From positions 1-64,000 of the forward strand of contig JANXUB010000029.1 of assembly GCA_025352105.1 (NCBI GenBank): a DNA stretch of 64,000 nucleotides, given 5' to 3'. The translations under genes were made by a program, and so were the position numbers. Numbering within the stretch: the first letter of the stretch is position 1; each line of letters starts with the position of its first letter. This document shows positions 3,579 to 58,770 of this stretch, piece by piece. The DNA is from Burkholderiales bacterium. Lineage in GTDB: Bacteria; Pseudomonadota; Gammaproteobacteria; Burkholderiales; Casimicrobiaceae. The notes beneath the pieces are model-generated. The model did not search any database, was not told where the DNA came from, and saw nothing but the letters and a program-made list of their open reading frames with translations.

Positions 3579-5003
3579 ATGTTTGACCCGTCGCCGCTGC
3601 CCCCAGGCAACTTGAACCAGCACCCACTTGTCGTCGATCTCGACGGCACACTGTGCAAGACCGACACGCTGTGGGAATGCTTCTTTGCGGCGTGGCGAGT
3701 GCATTGGTGGCTGCCGCTGGCGAGCGCGTTGTGGATGATTTCGGGGCGTAGCAAACTCAAAGCGCGGCTGGCTGCCATTGCGCTTCCCGATGTGATGGGA
3801 CTACCGTGGAATACTGCGGTCATTGACGCGCTACACGCGGCGCGTACGAGCGGTCAGCGCACGGTGCTGGCCACCGCTGCGAACGTCCGAATTGCCGAGG
3901 CGTGCGCTGGCGAATTGGGCGTGTTCGATGAAGTTATGGCCTCGGACGGCCTCGTGAATCTCAAAGGCCGGAATAAAGCAGCGCAATTGGTGGCGCGCTT
4001 TGGGCAAGGCGGCTTTGATTACGTCGGCGACTCAACTGCGGACACGCCGGTGTGGGCCGCAGCATCGCGCAAACTGACCGTGTCTGAGGTGATGCCATCA
4101 GGCGTAGAAAGACTGGGGCTGAAGACTTCGGCCAACAAACTTTCGAGCTGGATGAAGCTCATACGTGCGCGACACTGGGTTAAAAACGTGCTCGTTTTTG
4201 TGGCGCCGATGGCTGCGCATCAGTGGAGCGCAGAGGCGACGTGGCTGCCTGTTCTGCTCACGTTTGCGGCGTTCTGTGCGGTGTGCTCAGGCGTTTATGT
4301 GCTCAACGATTTATTCGATCTCGCGTCTGATCGAGCGCATCCAACGAAGCGCCACAGACCGCTTGCGGCCGGGGAATTGTCGCTGGCGACGGCTACGGTC
4401 GTGTCACTGGTTTTGTTGATTGGCGGCCTCGGATTGGCGTTTTGGATCGGGCCGCTTGTTGGCGCGGTCGTCGCGCTCTACGTGGTCGCCAACGCGATCT
4501 ACACAGTGCGCCTGAAGCGCGTGGCGGTGTTCGATGTGTTTTGCCTGGCCGGGCTTTATACGCTGCGGATTGTGGCGGGAGCGGCAGCGGTCATGGTGCC
4601 ATTGTCAACGTGGTTAGTCGCGTTTTCGGTGTTCGCATTTTTGAGTCTGGCACTCCTGAAGCGCGCGGCGGACATTGATCGACTAGCACCCGACGAAGTG
4701 CTGCCAGGGCGCGGCTACAGCGGTCGGGACGCGGCGTTTGTGAATGGATTTGGTATTAGCAGCGCCATTGCTGCCTGCCTTGTGCTCACGCTCTACATCG
4801 CCAGCGAACAGGTCGCCGCGATGTACGCCGAACCGCTCTGGTTGTGGGGCGTCGCCGTCGTCGTGTTGATGTGGCTTGCCCGCATGTGGCGTATGGCGAT
4901 GAACGGCACGATGGATGACGACCCGGTGATGTTCGCGGTGCGTGATGGCGTCTCGATTGGGTGCGCGTTGGCGGTCGTTGTCTTCACCGCGCTCGCGCTT
5001 TAG
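3579..5003 (+). CDS. HAD-like hydrolase fused to UbiA-family prenyltransferase
   Basis: HAD motif VVDLDGTLCKTDT at the N-terminus; UbiA motif NDLFDLASDRAHPTKRHRPLAAG in a multi-TM C-terminus. Confidence 0.88.
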   Translation: MFDPSPLPPGNLNQHPLVVDLDGTLCKTDTLWECFFAAWRVHWWLPLASALWMISGRSKLKARLAAIALPDVMGLPWNTAVIDALHAARTSGQRTVLATAANVRIAEACAGELGVFDEVMASDGLVNLKGRNKAAQLVARFGQGGFDYVGDSTADTPVWAAASRKLTVSEVMPSGVERLGLKTSANKLSSWMKLIRARHWVKNVLVFVAPMAAHQWSAEATWLPVLLTFAAFCAVCSGVYVLNDLFDLASDRAHPTKRHRPLAAGELSLATATVVSLVLLIGGLGLAFWIGPLVGAVVALYVVANAIYTVRLKRVAVFDVFCLAGLYTLRIVAGAAAVMVPLSTWLVAFSVFAFLSLALLKRAADIDRLAPDEVLPGRGYSGRDAAFVNGFGISSAIAACLVLTLYIASEQVAAMYAEPLWLWGVAVVVLMWLARMWRMAMNGTMDDDPVMFAVRDGVSIGCALAVVVFTALAL

Positions 5004-11806: not shown

Positions 11807-12751
11807 GTGCAAACCTTATCTCCTCGCCATTTTCCGTCGGTCTTGTCGTCCTTTCTTTCCTCCATCGCTTCCGCGCTCGCCAATGGGTTGAGTGGGTGCT
11901 CGCTTGCGACTCAGGCCGCTCTGGGTAAGGCTGTGGGGCGAATGATGCTGTTGTCCGGCGGCATGAGAAATCGCCTTCGGGAGAACTTGAGTTCTGCGGG
12001 ATACGCCGATCGGGTTTCGCTTGCCCAGGCCTCGACCGGGATTGGCCGCATGGCCATTGAGACGGCCGGGCTTTGGCGAACGCCGGACGCCATCGTTCTT
12101 GGCCGCGTGAAACTCGTCGACGGTTGGGATACCGTTCTCGCTGCGAAGGATCAGGGGCGGGGCATCATTTTCCTGACGCCTCACTTGGGCACTTTCGAAA
12201 TTGCGTCGCTCTTCATCGGCTCGCAAATGCCGCTGACCGCGATGTTCCGTGCACCCCGCGTGGCGTGGGCCGAGCCCATGATGCGGGCGGGTCGTGACCG
12301 CATGCAAATCCGCTCGCAACCTGCTGAGATGAGCGGCATCCGCGCAATGCTTAAGGCGCTGCGTCGCGGCGAAGCAATTGGCTTGCTGCCCGATCAGGTG
12401 CCCGATCCGGGCCGCGGTGGCGAAGGCGTTTGGGCGGCGTTTTTTGGAAGACCGGCGTACACGATCACGCTCGTGCAAAAGTTTGCCAAAACGACGCAGG
12501 CGCTGGTGGTGATGGTGGCGTGTGTGCGGCTGCCTGATGCGCAAGGGTATCGCTTGGCGTTTACGCCGCTGGCACCGTTTTCAGAGGATTCTGCTGCGGC
12601 TGCGCACGAGCTGAACGCAGCTGTCGAAGCGGCGATTGCGCTGGCGCCGGATCAGTATTTGTGGAGTTACAACCGGTACAAAGTGCCGCCGGGTTCGACG
12701 CCCTCTCCCGCAGCGCGGGAGACGATCAACGTGAGGGGTGAGGGCCGATGA
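11807..12751 (+). CDS. Lysophospholipid/lipid A acyltransferase (LpxL/HtrB family)
   Basis: FLTPHLGTFE, LLPDQVPDPGRGGEGVWAAFFGRPAYT; C-terminus encoded by a palindromic repeat. Confidence 0.85.
   Translation: MQTLSPRHFPSVLSSFLSSIASALANGLSGCSLATQAALGKAVGRMMLLSGGMRNRLRENLSSAGYADRVSLAQASTGIGRMAIETAGLWRTPDAIVLGRVKLVDGWDTVLAAKDQGRGIIFLTPHLGTFEIASLFIGSQMPLTAMFRAPRVAWAEPMMRAGRDRMQIRSQPAEMSGIRAMLKALRRGEAIGLLPDQVPDPGRGGEGVWAAFFGRPAYTITLVQKFAKTTQALVVMVACVRLPDAQGYRLAFTPLAPFSEDSAAAAHELNAAVEAAIALAPDQYLWSYNRYKVPPGSTPSPAARETINVRGEGR
12700..12744. repeat. CCCTCTCCC/GGGTGAGGG-type palindromic repeat inside the lpxL-like 3' end
   Basis: CCCTCTCCCGCAGCGCGGGAGA...GTGAGGGGTGAGGG. Confidence 0.75.
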
Positions 12752-12790: not shown

Positions 12791-12834
12791 CCCTCACCCT
12801 AGCCCTCTCCCGCGCTGCGGGAGAGGGGACTGGC
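12791..12834. repeat. Inverted partner of the preceding palindromic repeat
   Basis: CCCTCACCCTAGCCCTCTCCCGCGCTGCGGGAGAGGGG. Confidence 0.85.
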
Positions 12835-16078: not shown

Positions 16079-16222
16079 CTACCGCTTTTTCGGCTTTTTG
16101 ACACGAATGCCGTACGCCAACGCCAGACGACGCTGAAGGCGTGCAGCCTTCTTCAGCGCGGTGCGCAGCTCATTGAGCGGCGGTGTCAACAGGGGGCGGC
16201 CAGAAGCTTCAGGTGTGTCCAT
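16079..16222 (-). CDS. Small basic 47-aa ORF overlapping the 3' end of the zeta-like gene (MDTPEASGRPLLTPPLNELRTALKKAARLQRRLALAYGIRVKKPKKR)
   Basis: Read directly; below the 60-aa cut-off of the ORF track; ATG 16222, TAG 16079-16081; 37-nt overlap with the upstream gene in another frame. Confidence 0.5.
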   Translation of the reverse strand: MDTPEASGRPLLTPPLNELRTALKKAARLQRRLALAYGIRVKKPKKR

Positions 16223-16770
16223 CGTTCAAAGTCCAACACGGTCAGGCCGTGTCCGTTAGAGGTCGCAATAATAAGCGCTTCGTCATCCAGCGTATTGTCG
16301 AACACCGTGAATTCATCGGCAAGCGGCACATACAAATCGAAAAAATTGACGGCGCTGCGGGTGAATCGCCGCCGGATGTCCGACTCCGGAATCGAATGCC
16401 CACCCATTGCAACCCGGTGGCGCACGCGCCGCACTGCATCGTCGCCGCTGCGCAGGGCGAAGTAGTAAATCGACACGAGATAACCATCATCTTTGCAGTG
16501 CGAAATGAACTTTGCAAAGGTCTTGCTCGACAGCGTGCTTTCAAACGCAAAATCCTTGCGCTCCGAGGCGAGTTCATCAAGACGCTTCAACATGATGCGT
16601 CCCGCCGAAAATGCGGCGAGGCTCGTGTCATAGCCAACCAGCCCGCGCGCGATCAAATCGGCATTCACAAACGTCGAAATGTGTAGAGATTCGAGAATCG
16701 GTCCCGCGTGCGAACTTTTCCCCGCCCCATTAGGGCCCGCGAAAACGACGAGACGAGGAGACGTTGCCAT
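16186..16770 (-). CDS. Zeta-toxin-family / AAA P-loop kinase
   Basis: VVFAGPNGAGKSSHA Walker A; FVNADLIARGL; FESTLSSK; RVAMGGHSIPESDIRRRFTRSAVNF. Confidence 0.85.
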   Translation of the reverse strand: MATSPRLVVFAGPNGAGKSSHAGPILESLHISTFVNADLIARGLVGYDTSLAAFSAGRIMLKRLDELASERKDFAFESTLSSKTFAKFISHCKDDGYLVSIYYFALRSGDDAVRRVRHRVAMGGHSIPESDIRRRFTRSAVNFFDLYVPLADEFTVFDNTLDDEALIIATSNGHGLTVLDFERWTHLKLLAAPC

Positions 16771-16857
16771 GCACTAATCGTAACCCGCCTGGTAAGTTGC
16801 ATGTGATCAATGCGGCATGACTCGGCATAATCAGTGAGCCTTAACAGAACACCCACC

Positions 16858-19800
16858 ATGCCGCTTTCTTGGACCGAAATTCGCGACCGCGCCGCAACCT
16901 TTCAGAAAGACTGGAAGGAAGTCACGTCGGAGCAGGCAGAGTCACAATCGTTCTGGAGCGAATTCCTGAATGTCTTCGGCGTCAACCGCCGCCGCGTTGC
17001 GGTCTTCGAAAAGCACGTCACGATAAAGCGTGCCAAATCGGTCAAGAACGGTCGCATCGACCTGTTCTGGCCCGGCAAATTGCTGGTGGAGATGAAGAGC
17101 GCCGGGCAAGACCTCGACCGCGCGTTCGCGCAGGCAACCGACTACTTCGAAGCCCTGCCGGATCGCGATCTGCCGCGCTACCTGCTGGTCAGCGACTTCA
17201 AGCGTTTTCGCCTGTTCGACCTTGAAGAAAAGATTGACCATCCCGAGTTTCGGCTCGACCAGTTGAAAGACAAAGCGCGCCAGTTCGGCTTCATCGCCGG
17301 CTATCAGGCGCAGGTCATCAAGCCGCAAAACCCGGTCAACGCCAAAGCGGCGGCGCAAATGGGCAAGTTGCACGACGCGCTCAAAGCGGCAGGCTACGCA
17401 GGGCACGCGCTCGAAGTGCTGCTGGTACGGTTGCTGTTTTGCCTGTTTGCCGACGACACCGGCATTTTCCAGCCCGCACAAAGTTTTCGCGACTGGCTCG
17501 AAGCCGAAACCAAGCCCGACGGCAGCGACATGGGCCGAGCGCTCGCCGAATTGTTTGACGTGCTGAACACCGCCGAAGCCGCGCGCCAAAAGACGCAGCG
17601 CGACAATTTCGCGAGCTTTCCGTACATCAACGGTAGCCTGTTTGCCGAGACGCATCGCCCGCCCGCCTTCGATGCCAAAACGCGTGAACTCCTGCTCGAC
17701 GCCTGCGCGCTCGACTGGACGAACATCAGCCCCGCCATCTTCGGCGCGCTGTTTCAAAGCATCATGTCGGGTGAGGATCGGCGCAAGCTCGGCGCGCATT
17801 ACACGTCCGAAGAAAATATTCTCAAACTCATCAAGCCGCTGTTTCTTGACGAGCTGCGCGCCGAGTTTGAAAAGATCAAAAACAACGCCAATCGCCTTGC
17901 CGAATTTCACAAACGGCTGCGCACGCTCACCTTCTTCGACCCCGCCTGCGGATGCGGCAATTTTCTGGTCATTGCGTATCGCGAGCTGCGCCTGCTGGAG
18001 CTCGACATTCTGCGCGCCGTCAACAGCGGCCCCGGTTCGCGATTTCTCGACATTCATGGCAGCATCGCCGTCAACGTCGATCAGTTTTACGGCATAGAAA
18101 TCGAAGAATTCCCCGCGCAAATAGCGCAGGTCGCCATGTGGCTCACCGACCATCAAATGAACCGCATGGTCAGCGACGAATTCGGCGCGTACTACGCCCG
18201 CATACCGCTCGTCAGTACCGCGCATATCCGTCATGGCAATGCGCTACGCACGGATTGGAACGACGTGCTGCCTGCGGAGCGGTGCAGTTTTTTGTTTGGG
18301 AATCCGCCGTTTGTGGGCAAGTCCAATCAGTCGCCCGAACAAAAGGCCGACGTTGAACCCATCTTCGCGCCGCTCAAAGGCGGCGGAGTGCTCGATCTCG
18401 TCGCCGCGTGGTACGTTAAGGCTGCGAGCTACCTAAGCGCGAAAGGTTCGGCCCCCTCTCCCCTCGCGGGAGTAGAGCCTGCCCCGGCGCAGGCCGGGGG
18501 TTGGGGTGAGGGGGCGGGCGGCAAGCAGATCACCCACTGCGCCTTCGTCTCCACCAACAGCATCACGCAAGGCGAGCAAGTAGGCGTGCTCTGGGGCTGG
18601 CTGCTCGCGCAGGGCATCAAGATTCACTTCGCGCATCGCACGTTTCGCTGGAGCAACGAAGCCAGCGGCAAGGCGGCGGTGCATTGCGTGATCGTGGGGT
18701 TCGGCTTGCAAGAGGCGAGCACGAAAACGATCTACGAGTATGACGACGTGAATGGCGAGCCGCACGCCATTGCTGCTGCGCGGATCAATCCGTACTTGGT
18801 GGATGCGCCGATGCTTGCGCTCGGCGCACGCACGGCTCCCATAGCGCCGGTTCCCGCGGCATCGTTCGGCAGCAAACCAACGGATGGCGGCCACTTGCTG
18901 TTGTCTCGGATCGATGCCGAAGCGCTGCGCATTGATGAGCCGGCAGCAGGAGATTTCATTCGTCCGTACATGAGCGCTGACGACTTTCTCCACGACACAG
19001 GACGCTGCTGTCTATGGCTAAAAGGTTGCTCGCCCACTCTGCTGACAAAAATGCCCGCCGTGCTGGCTCGGATCGAGGCCGTTCGTTCGTTTCGACGTGC
19101 TAGCACCAAGGCAGCAACCCGCGACAATGCGGCCTATCCCACCGTGTTTGCAGAAGACCGACAGCCAGAGAGCAATTATTTGGCGATTCCGAAAACGTCC
19201 TCTGAGCGGCGCCAGTATGTGCCCATCGGATTTCTTGATCGGCGCGTTATCGTCGCGAGCGAACTATTTACGATTCAACACGCGTCGCTGCTTCATTTTG
19301 GCGTGCTTTCGTCGACCATGCACAACGCTTGGATGCGCGCGGTCTGCGGTCGATTGGAGAGTCGCTACCGCTATTCCGCAGGCATCGTCTACAACAATTT
19401 CCCGTGGCCTGACCTCACTGCAACTGCGGCGAGCCCCCTCACCCCGGAGCCAATAGGCGACAAGCGTGTCGTGCTCTCCCGCGAGGGGAGAGGGGACGAG
19501 AGCCCGGAAGCGGTTGAGAAACGTTGCGCCAAGGCGGCAGCGTTTTCCGGCAAATTGACAACCGCCGTCGAATCCGCCGCGCAAGGCGTGCTCGACGCGC
19601 GGGCTGCGCATCCTGAAAGCTCGCTCGCCGATTTGTACGACCCGGTGACCATGCCGCCGGATTTGACCAAGGCGCACCAGAAGCTCGACGCGGCGGTGGA
19701 CGCCGCGTATTTCGCCGCGCACGCGGCGGACGGCGCCAAGAAAACATGGCGCAACGACGCCGAGCGTGTAGCGTTTTTGTTCACGCTCTATCAAAAATTC

Positions 19801-19869
19801 ACGAGCTTTTTGCCGACAGAATCAGCGAAACCGAAGGGCGTTCGCAAGACGAAGGCGACTAGGGTTTGA
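16858..19869 (+). CDS. MmeI-like single-chain (type IIL/IIG) restriction endonuclease-methyltransferase
   Basis: N-terminal D-X9-EMK (GRIDLFWPGKLLVEMK); FFDPACGCGNFLVIAYREL SAM motif; LFGNPPFVGKS N6-MTase motif; C-terminal SLADLYDPVTMPPDLTKAHQKLD. Confidence 0.88.
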   Translation: MPLSWTEIRDRAATFQKDWKEVTSEQAESQSFWSEFLNVFGVNRRRVAVFEKHVTIKRAKSVKNGRIDLFWPGKLLVEMKSAGQDLDRAFAQATDYFEALPDRDLPRYLLVSDFKRFRLFDLEEKIDHPEFRLDQLKDKARQFGFIAGYQAQVIKPQNPVNAKAAAQMGKLHDALKAAGYAGHALEVLLVRLLFCLFADDTGIFQPAQSFRDWLEAETKPDGSDMGRALAELFDVLNTAEAARQKTQRDNFASFPYINGSLFAETHRPPAFDAKTRELLLDACALDWTNISPAIFGALFQSIMSGEDRRKLGAHYTSEENILKLIKPLFLDELRAEFEKIKNNANRLAEFHKRLRTLTFFDPACGCGNFLVIAYRELRLLELDILRAVNSGPGSRFLDIHGSIAVNVDQFYGIEIEEFPAQIAQVAMWLTDHQMNRMVSDEFGAYYARIPLVSTAHIRHGNALRTDWNDVLPAERCSFLFGNPPFVGKSNQSPEQKADVEPIFAPLKGGGVLDLVAAWYVKAASYLSAKGSAPSPLAGVEPAPAQAGGWGEGAGGKQITHCAFVSTNSITQGEQVGVLWGWLLAQGIKIHFAHRTFRWSNEASGKAAVHCVIVGFGLQEASTKTIYEYDDVNGEPHAIAAARINPYLVDAPMLALGARTAPIAPVPAASFGSKPTDGGHLLLSRIDAEALRIDEPAAGDFIRPYMSADDFLHDTGRCCLWLKGCSPTLLTKMPAVLARIEAVRSFRRASTKAATRDNAAYPTVFAEDRQPESNYLAIPKTSSERRQYVPIGFLDRRVIVASELFTIQHASLLHFGVLSSTMHNAWMRAVCGRLESRYRYSAGIVYNNFPWPDLTATAASPLTPEPIGDKRVVLSREGRGDESPEAVEKRCAKAAAFSGKLTTAVESAAQGVLDARAAHPESSLADLYDPVTMPPDLTKAHQKLDAAVDAAYFAAHAADGAKKTWRNDAERVAFLFTLYQKFTSFLPTESAKPKGVRKTKATRV
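18446..18523. repeat. Palindromic repeat inserted in frame inside the MmeI-like CDS (copy 1)
   Basis: CCCTCTCCCCTCGCGGGAGTAGAG...GGGTTGGGGTGAGGG; encodes GSAPSPLAGVEPAPAQAGGWGEGAGG. Confidence 0.85.
19434..19498. repeat. Palindromic repeat inserted in frame inside the MmeI-like CDS (copy 2, opposite orientation)
   Basis: CCCCCTCACCCC...CTCTCCCGCGAGGGGAGAGGGGACG; encodes SPLTPEPIGDKRVVLSREGRGDE. Confidence 0.8.
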
Positions 19870-58640: not shown

Positions 58641-58770
58641 ACTCCCTCTCCCGCAGCGCGGGAGAGGGTTGGGGTGAGGGTGGTTGATTGCGGAATCAAG
58701 TTGGCTCCGCTATTCATCGGCCCTCACCCGCCCTGTCGGGCACCCTCTCCCGCGCTGCGAGAGAGGGACT
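58641..58770. repeat. Inverted pair of CCCTCTCCC-type palindromic repeats between ugpB and ugpA
   Basis: CCCTCTCCCGCAGCGCGGGAGAGGGTTGGGGTGAGGG ... CCCTCACCCGCCCTGTCGGGCACCCTCTCCCGCGCTGCGAGAGAGGG. Confidence 0.92.

Follow-up and report, generated by a model that had tools for sequence, protein, structure and literature searches.

Rickettsia palindromic elements (RPEs) are repeats that have inserted into conserved protein genes without disturbing the frame and are read there as peptides some tens of residues long (Ogata et al. 2000, reviewed in PMC2229807); a guanylate kinase bearing an RPE has been reported as active (Abergel et al. 2006, cited in PMC2229807). Di Nocera et al. (2013, PMC3733652) likewise described REPs of the GTAG/CGTC type, and REP dimers, that keep the frame of the genes they occupy, among them uvrA, photolyase and tRNA synthetase. 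The accessible text of that study presents different REPs at about the same recB site in two Xanthomonas species as its single noted case of a shared site, and names no R-M gene among those that carry REPs. In-frame palindromic repeats and intragenic REPs are therefore not new in themselves; what we found unreported is the arrival of many unrelated families at one site in MmeI-type R-M genes. A literature search, with subscription papers outside its scope, returned neither an earlier report of REPs in MmeI-type genes nor one of a single site hit by many unrelated families on such a scale.

The gene that led to this finding lies in a window (the whole stretch of DNA analysed) of 64,000 nucleotides, G000:C2:1-64000, from a 4.5 Mb assembly of 231 contigs. 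It spans 16834-19869 on the plus strand and encodes an intact MmeI-type (Type IIL) protein of 1011 residues, in which all five MmeI Pfam domains are present (MmeI_N, MmeI_hel, MmeI_Mtase, MmeI_TRD and MmeI_C), so that endonuclease, spacer, gamma-class methyltransferase, TRD and C-terminal domains follow one another in a single chain as in the Type IIL layout. Sequence comparison aligned the MmeI of PDB 5hr4 end to end with this protein, and the predicted fold matched that of 5hr4 with a TMt of 0.88 and 53% identity in the fold alignment. FDPACGCGNFL, NPPF, His322 and Trp606 are all present and are invariant in the family, where the invariant alignment columns include H322, D369-L378, N490-F493 and W606 and the first motif takes the form FDPACGCGxFL. 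The roles of the equivalent residues in MmeI, including the conserved His and Trp that surround the flipped base, have been described (PMC4833311). The protein thus shares the full domain set and the catalytic motifs of MmeI but differs from it in two places: a turn of about 4 residues in 5hr4 is about 30 residues long here, and the short junction between TRD and C-terminal domain in 5hr4 is replaced by about 46 residues. A small P-loop ORF (16186-16770, minus strand; FAGPNGAGKSSHAGPILESL), zeta-toxin-like by eye, adjoins the gene. In two other genomes of the same genus only a C-terminal remnant of this MmeI gene, its last ~90 codons, was seen, beside unrelated genes (L018, G007:C312; L189, G009:C213).

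The first of the two differences had been picked out in the first-pass annotation as a REP-type palindrome, in frame in the methyltransferase region, adding about 26 residues at 18446-18523. These points were confirmed. Alignment to the same-genus orthologue bounds an insert of 26 codons, SAPSPLAGVEPAPAQAGGWGEGAGGK, at S539-K564 (78 nt, ~18448-18525, plus strand), within two bases of the annotated limits and flanked by YLSAKG and QITHCAFVSTNS. It divides the Pfam MmeI_Mtase match into profile positions 1-190 (17866-18444) and 192-259 (18532-18738), at a cost of about one profile position. The REP itself, CCCTCTCCCCTCGCGGGAG...GGGTTGGGGTGAGGG, runs from 18454 to 18512 (plus strand), in frame in ORF 16834-19869. 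The annotation was correct as to the repeat class, but the element is more than a plain REP: a second palindrome, GCCTGCCCCGGCGCAGGCCGGGG, at 18477-18499 (plus strand) interrupts the right half of the REP hairpin and makes the copy a composite. This nested hairpin is itself repeated, with 17 genomic sites at no more than 3 mismatches and none for the reversed control, and the composite form recurs at C50:192-249, with 82% identity over C50:187-258.

In a typical copy of this REP, a GGGTGAGGG tail follows a hairpin of the form CCCTCTCCC-loop-GGGAGAGGG. The 4.5 Mb genome holds 96 exact copies of CCCTCTCCC-N(4-24)-GGGTGAGGG and 20 copies of longer forms (N25-55), several of them with an extra hairpin; both reversed patterns gave zero, placing the frequency far above chance. 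The consensus ends, CCCTCTCCC and GGGTGAGGG, carry neither the GTAG nor the CGTC tag, which sets the family apart from those REPs even though uvrA, photolyase and tRNA synthetase genes are hit in frame in both cases. Many copies are paired in inverted orientation at distances of tens of bases (for example C29:16302/16380 and C194:8662/8743) and in this they resemble REPINs, inverted REP pairs mobilised by RAYTs. Unlike REPINs, the in-gene copies are single, and no RAYT with this REP in its flanks turned up. Within the window, the proposal that the same class occurs between genes at 12.7 kb and 58.6 kb stood as to the copies and as to their intergenic position at 58.6 kb, where a REP at 58644-58680 (plus strand) is accompanied by a degenerate, inverted one with an internal hairpin at 58721-58767 (minus strand). 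At 12.7 kb the copy at 12701-12744 (plus strand), whose inverted partner at 12791-12827 (minus strand) completes a REPIN-like pair, instead encodes the C-terminal tail of ORF 11807-12751, an acyltransferase-like gene whose last residues before the stop (TPSPAARETINVRGEGR) come from the REP. Among the four Y1_Tnp matches in the genome, several of them at or near contig ends, this REP was absent from the flanks examined. The nearest tested transposase, an IS200/IS605-type Y1_Tnp gene (L033, G000:C194:20641-22633), is flanked by CCCCGGCAAAGCCGGGG hairpins, and no RAYT link was found there. We count the lack of this REP in the L033 flanks against the reading we favor.

Insertion into genes is not confined to the R-M gene. 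Exact-ended copies were considered, in the window and in 72 stretches around such copies; of 116 copies, 60 fell within ORFs 100 aa or longer that continue for 30 codons beyond the copy in both directions, an upper bound since some of these ORFs are spurious. The family is thus repeated, palindromic, dispersed and found both within and outside genes, as RPEs are. About 19 genes recognised by Pfam carry it in frame, among them a long, fused-looking uvrA, glyS-beta, mnmG, urease alpha (ureC), a photolyase, an Lhr-type helicase, the lipoyl-linker regions of lpdA and aceF, an acyl-CoA dehydrogenase, dsbD, a Mur ligase and an acetyl/acetoacetyl-CoA synthetase-type enzyme. The loci L168, L187, L163, L159, L142, L169 and L158 hold the copies in uvrA, glyS-beta, mnmG, urease alpha, the photolyase, the helicase and the linkers. 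In-frame insertion is therefore a genome-wide habit here, as it is in Rickettsia conorii and O. terrae (PMC3733652). It reaches three of the four MmeI_Mtase genes of the genome (the query, L119 and L170; rough post hoc binomial P ~1e-5). In the other two R-M genes, L119 (C14, 1246 aa) and L170 (C203), the REP occupies positions other than those in the query.

If the 26 residues were native coding sequence, a family-specific loop that resembles the repeat by chance, homologues would be expected to share them. Homologues with the peptide, which the annotation had named as its refutation, were sought among 85 and none was found. At 74% identity over residues 6-539 the closest of these is the orthologue from G006 of the same genus (L005/L037), in which the site is empty, YLASNGQIRCAF, reading YLASNGQIRCAFVSTNS. 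A genome of the same family, G028, is empty at this site too. The insert is thus recent in the query lineage and, like an RPE, is an in-frame insertion that homologues lack. A true native long loop does exist at the same position in one clade of eight members (L004, L084, L092, L098, L100, L105, L106 and L108), but the query insert is unlike it and is a genomic repeat. With an empty orthologous site, repeat copies elsewhere and the long loop in a separate clade, we rejected a native origin for the query insert and give it next to no credence.

The second REP of the gene, copy 2, carries an extra internal hairpin and lies in frame in the linker between TRD and C-terminal domain at 19436-19494 on the minus strand, inverted relative to copy 1. 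G028 is empty at this second site also. The corresponding linker in G006 (L005, ~4031-4075) has a REP of the same class in the same orientation and reading frame as copy 2, so that the site was either hit before the split of query and G006 or hit twice. This shared copy bears on the idea that the R-M gene is decaying and that insert 1 has simply not yet been purged. Such genes turn over quickly, and G007 and G009 of the same genus keep only the C-terminal remnants noted above; yet the query gene keeps every domain and catalytic motif intact, its 1011 codons are free of stops and frameshifts even with two inserts, and a REP at site 2 is shared with G006. We consider decay improbable.

How the protein accommodates the inserts is suggested by an AlphaFold model of the 1011 residues (mean pLDDT 83). 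In the model, helix 524-535 is followed by a disordered stretch, with pLDDT below 50 over 539-556, and then by strand 568-574. Confidence also falls below a pLDDT of 50 over a second long internal stretch, residues 865-886, which is the site-2 REP. Both REP-encoded segments are thus predicted to be disordered on an otherwise confident, intact core. The turn that holds insert 1 falls between motif IV (NPPF, 490-493) and the conserved Trp606. In class I methyltransferases such a helix-to-strand turn is exemplified by the LKPGG turn of M.TaqI, and from the usual class I fold we take it to be at the sheet edge opposite the cofactor and target-base pocket. Placement of insert 1 in a surface loop is accordingly supported by the predicted model and by general knowledge of the methyltransferase fold. 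The annotation's comparison with RPEs, as a repeat tolerated in a loop, gains support from a genome-wide repeat that is in frame and predicted to be disordered between helix and strand. As with RPEs, a palindromic repeat sits in frame in a conserved protein gene and would be read as a peptide; the organism differs, and so, as far as can be judged, does the repeat. Its GC-rich sequence and its host make it unlikely that this REP belongs to the RPE family proper.

The larger departure from the Rickettsia case is that, across Proteobacteria, repeats of unrelated families have entered members of one protein family at a single site. We aligned 80 full-length homologues from public genomes and 6 from relatives (L005 and L037 being one genome represented twice, and L094 left unscored). 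Inserts of at least 8 residues follow query residue 538 in 39 homologues and occur at site 2 in 22, as compared with no more than 9 at any other position. At a third site, in the N-terminal domain (query residues 132-136), palindromic inserts were seen in L043, L049, L102, L110 and L115. Repeat-class inserts are found at the helix-strand turn in 27 of the 86 homologues and, judged by DNA motif, belong to at least eight unrelated families: CCCTCTCCC-like (n=10), CTGAGCYTGTCGA (n=5), TAGGAGC (n=4), TCGCGAGMCCCGCAGGGGCG (n=3), CGTCRTYCCCGCG (n=2), and TCATTGCGGGC, GGGGTCAGA and CGGGCTGGCCGG (n=1 each). Alignment-based clustering with shuffled controls joined no two of the eight classes. Against dinucleotide shuffles, 18 of 27 repeat-class inserts were significantly palindromic, as were 1 of 9 unassigned inserts and none of the 8 native long loops, and inserts in L045, L049, L055, L060 and L089 have perfect arms of 23-25 nt. 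Inserts of the TAGGAGC family occur in two different reading frames, which argues that insertion occurred at the DNA level.

Presence and absence at the turn change at least 14 times on a tree of residues 1-530, and the insert classes together have ~25 origins on the same tree, a count of changes that could include losses. Close relatives differ: L093 has an insert that L086 and L110 lack, L079 has one that L071 lacks, the pairs L093/L086 and L079/L071 being near-identical outside the TRD, and L039, L043 and L051, with ~90% identical backbones, carry three different repeat families. Further copies of the insert or its family were found in the insert's own host genome for at least 20 of 25 hosts tested by concatenated-insert searches, a lower bound tallied by reading listings with 10-34 candidates scored per genome. 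Since the families of most inserts are present in the current host, horizontal carriage with the gene is weakened as a sole explanation. For the inserts of L043, L046, L053, L062 and L070, no further host copy was seen among the candidates scored at the thresholds used; these five may have been carried in with the gene, and we count them against our preferred reading.

Why the turn is hit so often admits two answers, tolerance and selection. Under the second, the turn favors a palindromic insert because the mRNA or DNA hairpin acts as a brake on expression, or the peptide as a spacer that modulates restriction activity, and selection would take up any repeat available, with unrelated host repeats repeatedly captured and replaced. 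All six of the related Methylotenera-type homologues (L045, L054, L055, L063, L064 and L070) have an insert, drawn from four families, and none is empty; many inserts are predicted to fold strongly, at about -50 to -105 kcal/mol; and the occupation of three of four MmeI_Mtase genes in the query genome points the same way. General tolerance alone may also fall short of explaining the frequent MmeI hits, as palindromic inserts in glycyl-tRNA synthetase beta (GlyS) numbered 0 in 28 genomes (27 insert hosts and G006), although these genomes were picked for having an MmeI insert, so that the control shows that not every gene is hit rather than how special MmeI is. Against a useful insert, a short loop occupies the turn in roughly half of the homologues, whose proteins look intact, the sequence, length and frame of the insert are not conserved, and the same REP occurs in many unrelated genes of the query genome. 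We regard tolerance as the main answer and consider it unlikely, a minority possibility, that inserts at the turn are favored.

We also considered whether the REPs serve as recombination arms flanking the specificity region, through which TRD cassettes are exchanged between R-M genes. The two copies do bracket the TRD segment, and TRD exchange is clear in the family, with residues 640-820 at 40-60% identity in pairs that are ~90% identical elsewhere. But identity drops and recovers near residues 640 and 820, away from the REPs; residues 566-640, next to site 1, are at backbone identity in all pairs; L056 and L081 have an insert in common and different TRDs; and the two REPs are inverted in orientation. 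We rejected the REPs as the mechanism of exchange, and the idea seems very improbable. Wholesale exchange of specificity across Proteobacteria is an observation in its own right, with ~90% MmeI backbones bearing 40-60% TRDs (query, L037-L116).

Altogether, we favor with considerable confidence a model in which insert 1 is a selfish insertion, similar to the Rickettsia RPEs, that is tolerated as an unstructured loop, and in which the helix-strand turn is a recurrent permissive site. We envision that the composite two-hairpin REP, mobilised by some REP transposition process, would have entered the MmeI-type gene at the DNA level in a register that kept the frame. Insertions that were out of frame or in the core would be lost by selection, and those that were in frame in the turn would survive and be translated as a floppy loop, of 26 residues in the query, with enzyme activity probably retained. 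Insert 1 would thus owe its tolerance to its position, at the turn that leads from a helix to the following strand of the methyltransferase sheet. In the MmeI family this turn has been entered many times, and the palindromic repeats that entered it come from at least eight unrelated families, most of them resident in the host.

In-frame REP and RPE insertions have so far been viewed as scattered accidents. Here, at least eight unrelated families have sampled one codon position, and one REP family lies inside about 19 conserved genes of a single genome, including three of four related R-M enzymes. The MmeI turn amounts to an insertion-scanning experiment run by evolution. For the engineering of Type IIL enzymes it offers a place where tags or domains could readily be inserted, and the near-identical enzymes with and without an insert make the question of whether these repeats are neutral or recruited a testable one.
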